Assembly: GCF_030913635.1 (NCBI RefSeq)
Contig: NZ_CP133188.1
Location: 1,612,001-1,676,000, forward strand
Source: Sedimentibacter sp. MB35-C1
GTDB taxonomy: Bacteria > Bacillota > Clostridia > Tissierellales > Sedimentibacteraceae
Length of the DNA: 64,000 nt
Reading direction: 5' to 3'
Shown one piece after another: positions 56,120-58,539 of the stretch (positions within the stretch are counted from its first letter, which is position 1; each line of letters begins with the position of its first letter). The notes under the pieces were generated by a model. It saw nothing but the letters and a program-made list of their open reading frames with translations, ran no database searches and was not told the DNA's origin. The position numbers were made by a program, and so were the translations under genes.

Positions 56120-56555
56120 TATATTCTCCTTTTGTTTTATATAATTACCCCTAACCTTAACGAACGTAATCTATTTTGATATTATCCTTTCGTTGTGAAT
56201 AAATTATAGCATGTACAATTATGAAATGTAACCCTCAAATACTTGAACAGTTGGAAAATATGACAAATATATTACACAATTATCAACTGAAAATAAATAT
56301 TACAAGTTTATTACAAAATTCTAAGTGTTTGACCTAGAGGCACAATGTTTGTATTTCAGCATTTATTATAATTTTGAAATGCAAAATACAATATAAAATA
56401 ACTTTTATATAAAATAATATTTTAACAAATGATATATACATCAGCATATACAACAAAACCAAGCAAATAATATTCGAACAAATGTTTGACAAGCAAATCA
56501 TATTGTAGTATTATTGAGTAAATTACTTTACTGATTAATAGGTGCGTGGTGAAAT
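56120..56555. other. Divergent intergenic region
   Basis: AT-rich, about 435 bp, with the upstream region of the CAP gene on one side and the LexA-box promoter (56475-56514) on the other. No ORF is supported. Confidence 0.6.
56475..56514 (+). promoter_or_regulatory. Promoter with LexA-like box for the radical SAM pair
   Basis: TTGACA (56486-56491), 17-bp spacer, TATTAT (56509-56514). CGAAC-AAAT-GTTTG (56475-56488) overlaps the -35 box and differs from the Firmicute SOS box CGAAC-N4-GTTCG by one base; clostridial LexA boxes often have GTTT here. Confidence 0.75.
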
Positions 56556-57803
56556 ATGAATGAAAGCTTGTTTAATAAACTAAGAATATTGTCAGATGCC
56601 GCAAAATATGATGTTTCATGTGTTTCAAGCGGGGTTGAAAGAAAGAATAAAACAGTAGGGGGAATAGGGAATGCTTCGTCTGCCGGTATATGCCATGCTT
56701 GGTCGTCAGACGGCAGATGTATTTCTCTGCTTAAGATTTTACTTACAAATGATTGCATCTATGACTGCAGCTACTGTCTTAACAGAGTGACGAATAATAC
56801 TGAAAGAGCAACTTTCACACCCGAAGAGGTTGCCGAGCTGACAATTCAGTTTTACAGGAGAAACTATATAGAAGGATTATTTTTAAGTTCTGCTGTGGAG
56901 AAAAGTCCCGACCATACAATGGAAAACATATATAAAGTTTTGGAACTACTGAGATATAAATATAATTTTTGGGGTTATGTGCATGTTAAGGTTATTCCGG
57001 GAGCAGATCCAATGCTTGTTCAAAAAGCAGGAATGCTGGCAGATAGAATGAGTGTTAATATAGAGCTTCCCACAGAAAAAAGTTTAAGAGCGCTTGCTCC
57101 TCAGAAAAAAATTGAAAATATTATTAAACCTATGTCAGTAATAAATAATGAAATAACCCGCACAATTGAAGATGAAAAATTTTTTCGCAGCACACCTAGA
57201 TTTGTGCCGGGAGGGCAGTCCACACAAATGATTATTGGGGCAACTCCGGATAGCGACAAAACCATCCTTGGATTGTCACAGAATTTATATGATAGATTTA
57301 ATATGAAGAGAGTTTTCTTTTCTGCATACATTCCTGTGATTTCATCGCCCAATCTGCCGGCTATAAGCACAATGCCACCTCTTTTGAGAGAACACAGGCT
57401 TTATCAGGCAGATTGGCTCATGCGCTTTTATTATTTTAATTGTGAGGAATTATTTACGGAAACCGACCAAAATCTCGATTTGGATTTCGATCCTAAAATG
57501 ATGTATGCACTTAGAAATTTGAACAGGTTTCCCTTAGAAATTAATAAGGCTCCTTACGAAGAACTTCTGAGAATTCCCGGACTTGGAGTAAAGAGTGCCC
57601 AAAAAATTGTTAGAGAAAGGAAAAATGCGCAACTGTCCTATGATTCGCTAAAAAAAATGCGCACAGTTTTAAAAAGAGCAAAATATTTTATAACTGTTAA
57701 AGGAAAATACTATGGGAATGTTAAATTTGATCCTGAGATTATAAAAACGGAACTGAGAAGAATGGAAGTTCAACAACAGCTTTCAATTTACGATTTAATA
57801 TAG
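56556..57803 (+). CDS. Putative DNA modification/repair radical SAM protein
   Basis: A 415-residue protein. The radical SAM cluster motif is C67-IYD-C71-SY-C74 (CX3CX2C). SCVSSG, SSAGICHAWSSDGRCISLLKILLTND precedes it. The C-terminal 90 residues form helix-hairpin-helix repeats (NRFPLEINKAPYEELLRIPGLGVKSAQKIVRE), which bind DNA. This is the family known from genome annotation as putative DNA modification/repair radical SAM protein, always paired with the DUF4130 protein encoded next (8 bp downstream). The enzymatic reaction is unknown. ATG 56556 has a poor ribosome-binding site (GTGGTG). Confidence 0.9.
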   Translation: MNESLFNKLRILSDAAKYDVSCVSSGVERKNKTVGGIGNASSAGICHAWSSDGRCISLLKILLTNDCIYDCSYCLNRVTNNTERATFTPEEVAELTIQFYRRNYIEGLFLSSAVEKSPDHTMENIYKVLELLRYKYNFWGYVHVKVIPGADPMLVQKAGMLADRMSVNIELPTEKSLRALAPQKKIENIIKPMSVINNEITRTIEDEKFFRSTPRFVPGGQSTQMIIGATPDSDKTILGLSQNLYDRFNMKRVFFSAYIPVISSPNLPAISTMPPLLREHRLYQADWLMRFYYFNCEELFTETDQNLDLDFDPKMMYALRNLNRFPLEINKAPYEELLRIPGLGVKSAQKIVRERKNAQLSYDSLKKMRTVLKRAKYFITVKGKYYGNVKFDPEIIKTELRRMEVQQQLSIYDLI

Positions 57804-57810
57804 GTGTACT

Positions 57811-58539
57811 ATGGATTATTTATATGATGGGACTTTTGAAGGATTGCTAACCTGTATCTATTATCATTATAAAAATGAGGCGGCCTCAGGAATATATGAA
57901 ATTTCAAAATATCAGCATTCAATGCTGAATGAAAGCGAAGTGATTGAAACTGATATATTAAAGGCATCGATTGTGTCGGAATCGATATTGAAAAAAATTT
58001 CCAGAGAAGCATATGTTGATATATATTATTGCTATTTGTCTTTTTTGGAAAATAAAGAAAATTATATACTTGATTTTTTAGTATTTGCTTTTAAATATGG
58101 TAAAAACACAATGAATTTCTATACTCATGATAAGGTTCTTCCTATAAAAGAGGCTTCTCTTAAGGTTACCAGAGAGGTTCATAGATTTCTTGGAATTTTA
58201 CGCTTTTCAGATATTGATGGAATTCTTTTTGCAAAATTTTCTCCCGACAATGATGTATTATTATTAGTTGTTGATCATTTTGCAGATAGATATAGATTTG
58301 AGAAATTCTTAATTTATGATGAGAAAAGAAAAAAAGCTGCAATATATGCTGATGAAACATGGGAAATCAAGGAAAACATTAATATAGAAAGTATTGAATA
58401 TTCTGAAGACGAAGCAATGATTCAAGGGTTGTGGAAGCAGTATTTTACAGACATGGCAATTAAGGAGAGAAAGAATTTTAATTTGCAGTTTCAATTTGTT
58501 CCTGCCAGATACAGAAAAAACATGTCTGAATTTAAATGA
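57811..58539 (+). CDS. TIGR03915/DUF4130 putative DNA-repair partner
   Basis: A 242-residue cytoplasmic protein, MDYLYDGTFEGLLTCIYYHYKNE..., the usual partner of the radical SAM protein upstream. The C-terminal half is the DUF4130 domain (REVHRFLGILRFSDIDGILFAKFSPDNDVLLLVVDHFADRYRFEKFLIYDEKRKKAAIYAD). The set resembles a DNA-base repair pair in which this protein may carry the glycosylase-like or substrate-holding part. The LexA-like box ahead of the operon supports a DNA-damage role. No catalytic residue is assigned. Confidence 0.85.
   Translation: MDYLYDGTFEGLLTCIYYHYKNEAASGIYEISKYQHSMLNESEVIETDILKASIVSESILKKISREAYVDIYYCYLSFLENKENYILDFLVFAFKYGKNTMNFYTHDKVLPIKEASLKVTREVHRFLGILRFSDIDGILFAKFSPDNDVLLLVVDHFADRYRFEKFLIYDEKRKKAAIYADETWEIKENINIESIEYSEDEAMIQGLWKQYFTDMAIKERKNFNLQFQFVPARYRKNMSEFK

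Follow-up and report, generated by a model that had tools for sequence, protein, structure and literature searches.

A candidate LexA operator on the promoter of a radical SAM/DUF4130 gene pair in Sedimentibacter, and its association with lexA in Clostridia

The DNA analysed here (the window) is a stretch of 64,000 nucleotides from Sedimentibacter sp. MB35-C1 (contig NZ_CP133188.1, positions 1,612,001 to 1,676,000), and all coordinates below are positions within it unless stated otherwise. It contains a pair of adjacent genes on the forward strand. Gene 1 (56556-57803, + strand) encodes a radical SAM protein of 415 residues belonging to TIGR03916 (rSAM_link_UDG), with a profile score of 624.2 bits against a cut-off of 343.5. 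Gene 2 (57811-58539, + strand) lies 7 bases downstream and encodes a TIGR03915/DUF4130 protein of 242 residues, which scores 226.7 bits against TIGR03915 (cut-off 112.25) and 150.4 bits against the Pfam DUF4130 profile (cut-off 27). Both genes are far above their family cut-offs, and the identification of a radical SAM/DUF4130 pair in the original prediction is therefore sound. The radical SAM motif CX3CX2C of gene 1 is formed by C67, C71 and C74, which are invariant in all 47 aligned sequences. Residues 327-366 of the same protein make up a helix-hairpin-helix region, which at 26.1 bits scores slightly below Pfam's threshold of 27.

Both families are widespread and are labelled 'putative repair'. 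No paper on their reaction was found by searching a library of open-licence papers. The pairing was followed in 80 named loci, these being the best 80 of at least 590 confirmed relatives and including near-duplicates (for example L132 and L138, or L142 and L144). Of the 80, 77 have a DUF4130 frame in the neighbourhood of the radical SAM gene. In 68 the open frame overlaps that gene or starts no more than 100 bases past its end, and in three loci the distance exceeds 1 kb.

The candidate LexA operator (SOS box) is CGAACAAATGTTTG, at 56475-56488 on the + strand, and is proposed on the basis of its sequence and its conservation at orthologs. It fits the palindrome RAAC-N4-GTTY and is sited on the core promoter. 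Its last three bases (TTG) are also the first three of a -35 element, TTGACA (56486-56491, + strand), which is separated by a 17-base spacer from a -10 element, TATTAT (56509-56514, + strand). The ATG of gene 1 follows at 56556, 41 bases past the -10 element. With 11 of 12 matches, TTGACA-17-TATTAT is the top promoter among 24 identified between 55500 and 59500, a total close to that obtained by shuffling (mean 19.0, sd 5.4). Both the near-ideal promoter and the LexA-like box overlapping it are thus present as had been described.

Taken by itself, the box does not stand out from chance expectation and is weak evidence. When up to one mismatch to CGAACRNRYGTTYG is allowed, the window contains one site (0.34 expected), and at least one turns up in 25 of 100 shuffles. 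Across the genome, sites for a reversed control pattern equal or outnumber those for the motif, which makes motif counting useless for defining a regulon. These counts, no higher in window or genome than in the controls, are what would be seen if the box were a chance palindrome near a promoter at which LexA is inactive. What makes the box significant is that it sits on a promoter and recurs upstream of orthologs.

Conservation was measured using a strict site, defined as RAAC-N4-GTTY plus one base on each side and lying no more than 250 bases upstream of the radical SAM gene. A sample of relatives comprised 61 genomes, including that of Sedimentibacter sp. MB35-C1 itself, and the gene scores above cut-off in 37 of them. 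Among 30 loci, 28 carry the strict box, against 0.5 expected from shuffles; the other seven genomes have it too, six of them scored by script and one (G040) by eye. The total is therefore 35 of 37 genomes, again with our own included. The two genomes that lack the box are G059 and G006. G059 is 99% complete and no LexA match was found in it: the only protein that matches LexA is a repressor of XRE/S24 type beside an integrase-like gene, as read by eye. G006 is 74% complete, has no clear LexA, and offers only 159 upstream bases in its locus.

A strict box is present in 51 of the 80 named loci, where shuffles predict 1.9, while the same site occurs in 31 of 2360 other 250-base stretches of these loci. 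One of the named loci (L113) apparently comes from the same genome as a member of the relatives sample (G026). Of the 29 loci that lack a strict box, several have a version with one mismatch at the promoter, and others are, by title, records from Bacteroidetes, Chlorobi or Elusimicrobia. Outside Firmicutes, other LexA motifs are to be expected. A good promoter was found in 45 of the 51 box-bearing loci, and in 43 of these 45 the box falls on the -35 element, the spacer, the -10 element or the next 25 bases, at varying positions (a count made without a shuffle control). A box that shifts in place and yet stays on the promoter is the outcome to be expected under selection for repression.

The association with lexA was examined in a sample of the class, made up of 195 genomes for which a completeness of at least 95 was requested. 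The radical SAM gene is above cut-off in 80 of them and lexA (E 1e-20 or better) is present in 167. Where the gene is above cut-off, the strict box is found in 71 of the 75 genomes that have lexA, as against one of the five that do not. The exception among the five is G137, which keeps the box; G059, G117, G194 and G199 do not have it. The list of genomes without lexA was drawn by hand from the match table, G194 being taken as one of eight genomes with no match, and two of the five (G059 and G199) belong to one family. For a subset (66 of 70 with lexA, one of five without), Fisher's test gives p = 2.7e-4, a figure that, like those from shuffling, ignores relatedness. The four genomes with lexA and no box are G120, G170, G174 and G248. 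The box is also present in G244, whose lexA match is weak (E 2.2e-24) and which is counted here as having lexA; if it is counted as lacking lexA, the second group becomes two of six. Among five divergent radical SAM members that score below the cut-off, only that of G068 (L294) has the box, and those of G088 (L292), G111 (L291), G113 (L290) and G090 (L289) do not. Four genomes (G000, G029, G047 and G059) are common to this sample and that of the relatives.

Absence of the box from orthologous promoters had been named as grounds for refutation; in both samples most of these promoters have it. The box is also mostly absent where lexA has been lost, on the evidence of the five genomes above cut-off that lack lexA, with G137 as the exception. 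It is worth adding that lexA was not detected in G137 (96% complete) or in G005, a member of the relatives sample that is 88% complete, and that both have the box on the pair. This is perhaps a matter of assembly gaps, or of another LexA-like repressor.

A second type of operator is seen in Alphaproteobacteria. Matches were obtained in 158 plasmid records (25 of them listed), and the set looked at is eight of the 158. The eight include repeats: two Leisingera boxes are alike, as are three boxes from Rhizobiaceae. In all eight there is a direct repeat, GAAC-N7-GAAC or GTTC-N7-GTTC, 16-28 bases before the start of the radical SAM gene. Shuffling predicts 0.03 such repeats, and none is found in 170 other stretches. 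We take this direct repeat to be the alphaproteobacterial SOS box. It was not found in one Acinetobacter record and one Parabacteroides record. On a 538 kb 'plasmid' of Acinetobacter baumannii (CP040042.1, our locus L211) the pair adjoins glycyl-tRNA ligase genes, and the record looks chromosomal despite its label. The radical SAM gene is also present in two 240 kb records named Acinetobacter phage MD-2021a.

These results make a chance palindrome very hard to credit as an explanation. The box is present in 35 of 37 genomes of the relatives sample and in 71 of the 75 lexA-bearing ones of the class sample, where about 2% would be expected; it is associated with lexA; and a different LexA-type box takes the same place in Alphaproteobacteria. 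LexA control, the reading we prefer, is further favoured by the other boxes in the Sedimentibacter genome, which encodes one LexA. The lexA promoter itself has two boxes, AGAACATAAGTTCG and CAAACAAATGTTTG. The recA box is AGAACAAATGTTCT and the uvrB box CGAACATACGTTTA, each of them directly after a -10-like TATAAT (read by eye), and CGAACATAAGTTCG is found immediately ahead of the start of a Y-family polymerase gene, named by eye from its sequence. CGAACAAATGTTTG therefore matches the boxes that core SOS genes carry in the same genome. A further LexA-like sequence, AAACAAATGTTTG (C1:2064866-2064878 in the genome), precedes what appears by eye to be a LUD-domain gene.

The 13-base core of the box, GAACAAATGTTTG, also occurs letter for letter in the recA and lexA operators of C. 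difficile, for which surface plasmon resonance showed LexA binding (PMC4234289). The words 'Radical SAM' have no occurrence in the main text of that paper on the C. difficile LexA regulon (PMC4234289).

On the basis of these observations, we consider it highly probable that the two genes form an operon belonging to the SOS regulon, repressed by LexA at CGAACAAATGTTTG and induced by DNA damage. Such control by LexA is common in Clostridia. By analogy with established LexA biology, we infer binding, repression and cleavage at this operon as follows. A LexA dimer would sit on CGAACAAATGTTTG, over the -35 element, and block RNA polymerase. On DNA damage, RecA assembled on single-stranded DNA would bring about the self-cleavage of LexA, and the pair would then be expressed alongside RecA, UvrB and the Y-family polymerase. 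A LexA placed over the -35 element would explain repression, and its cleavage after damage would explain induction.

SOS control of the pair is not new in kind, because it has been predicted for CAC3343-CAC3344 of Clostridium acetobutylicum and reported for the COG1573-COG4277 operon, in which we take COG4277 to correspond to TIGR03916. The first of these predictions is due to Wang et al. 2013, who derived it from footprinting and expression data (PMC3828012). In their description CAC3343-CAC3344 consists of a radical SAM gene for repair and a second gene whose function is not known (PMC3828012), and it is by this description that we liken it to the pair studied here. Their prediction concerns one species, whereas the present analysis covers a genome of the Tissierellales and many families, with a lexA-minus control. 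The COG1573-COG4277 or 'UDG' operon is reported from the SOS regulons of three groups, Bacteroidetes, Verrucomicrobia and Alphaproteobacteria, and the authors term it base excision repair (PMC8565304). It too consists of two genes and is reported to be under LexA, through operators of other types (PMC8565304). Its partner gene differs, being a uracil-DNA glycosylase-type protein (COG1573), whereas here the partner is DUF4130 alone. PMC3765255 calls DUF4130 a predicted mutagenesis-related enzyme and ties it to both radical SAM proteins and uracil-DNA glycosylases. The radical SAM protein is also named in PMC9611098, in a table. What is added here is breadth, a lexA-minus control, and a side-by-side view of the operator switch.

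It had been proposed that SOS control would be direct support for a repair role. The part of this that stands is a role in the damage response: a lexA-linked box spread over many families, together with another operator type in Alphaproteobacteria, makes such a role very likely. Repair itself does not follow from it. SOS regulons contain non-repair genes too, and the pair might be under LexA and act in damage tolerance, in signalling, or in the synthesis of a modified base or nucleotide. The genes reported for C. difficile, for example, include some for ABC transporters and one spore gene (PMC4234289). The predicted structures discussed below lean in the same direction, in that the radical SAM model is closest, among the matches listed, to biosynthetic enzymes, and the DUF4130 model resembles nucleotide-handling DHH proteins. 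Against this are the helix-hairpin-helix region of gene 1, with its score just under the Pfam threshold, the annotation of the alphaproteobacterial downstream partner as a UdgX-family uracil-DNA binding protein, and the like boxes carried by recA and uvrB in the same genome. We regard a function outside repair as unlikely, if less so than the other alternatives considered here.

The model for gene 1 has a mean pLDDT of 88.8 and a radical SAM fold. Among the 50 matches listed, it is nearest to lipoyl synthase (Z 17.8, rmsd 3.5, 231 residues aligned), and it also matches HydE (Z 16.7, rmsd 2.6, 213 aligned). The biosynthetic enzymes closest to it among these matches are LipA, HydE, BioB and ThiH. 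Six cysteines are invariant in all 47 aligned sequences, these being the CX3CX2C set and also C22, C46 and C55; H47 is invariant in all 47 as well. The three extra cysteines and H47 fall within 56619-56723 (residues 22-56 of gene 1), ahead of the radical SAM motif. C22, C46 and C55 could hold a second metal (iron-sulfur) cluster, but residues 21-41 are poorly modelled.

These features bear on the literature label 'SplB-like radical SAM photolyase', according to which the pair would be a photoproduct lyase of the SplB kind. DUF4130 has indeed been linked with SplB-like radical SAM proteins (PMC3765255). Among the 50 matches listed in either structure search, however, there is no spore photoproduct lyase, which is not proof; the best of those listed are lipoyl synthase, HydE and biotin synthase, and the three extra invariant cysteines in the 47 aligned sequences also speak against it. 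An enzyme of the SplB kind thus seems improbable.

The DUF4130 model has a pLDDT of 92.0. Its best match is PAP phosphatase (8a8k; Z 9.0, rmsd 5.0, 191 aligned). RecJ proteins are matched with Z up to 7.9 (for 2zxo: Z 7.8, rmsd 3.7, 176 aligned), and Cdc45 is also matched; these scores, 9.0 at best and 7.9 next, are near background. Nearly all of the 50 matches listed belong to what we take, by name or by family, to be the DHH/DHHA1 superfamily, and in several of them the match is confined to residues 121-196 of DUF4130 and the C-terminal region of the DHH/DHHA1 protein.

The superfamily (RecJ, Cdc45, PAP phosphatase) may thus resemble DUF4130 in predicted fold; no similarity in sequence was detected. 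Foldseek gave no match to the model at E 0.001 or better. A Pfam scan of 41 DUF4130 members and a profile search of PDB sequences gave no sign of a DHHA1 relation. Profile-profile comparison was negative both for the whole of DUF4130 against RecJ-, NrnA- and AlaRS-type proteins and for residues 104-200 against DHHA1 segments and RecJ- and NrnA-type proteins; in the latter comparison the control, NrnA-type against RecJ-type profiles, reached a probability of 92. With sequence methods negative, the resemblance of the DUF4130 model to DHH/DHHA1 phosphoesterases is to be treated as a lead. Position 6, which is presumably where the first DHH metal ligand would be expected, is D in 35 of 41 members and so is not invariant. 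This would fit a non-catalytic, Cdc45-like role for DUF4130.

The fold lead and the three extra cysteines provide concrete biochemical hypotheses. Our tentative suggestion, which is bolder than the case for LexA control and considerably less secure, is that the pair may be an SOS-induced two-subunit enzyme of an undescribed kind, which would repair or remodel a lesion directly by radical chemistry. It would combine a radical SAM subunit of the LipA/HydE type, having a second iron-sulfur cluster at C22, C46 and C55, and a catalytically dead, RecJ/Cdc45-like DUF4130 that presents the DNA, and in Alphaproteobacteria it would be combined with UdgX. Going by the protein features, the helix-hairpin-helix region would carry the radical SAM subunit to DNA, the DUF4130 subunit would hold the DNA or the lesion, and a 5'-deoxyadenosyl radical generated by the radical SAM subunit would reverse or remodel the lesion. 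If this is true, the lesion would be one that neither excision repair nor photolyases handle. The part assigned to UdgX comes from the plasmid records, where in six of the eight the downstream protein is annotated 'UdgX family uracil-DNA binding protein'. This downstream protein has about 470-490 residues, compared with 242 for gene 2, a length that would fit a UdgX-DUF4130 fusion.
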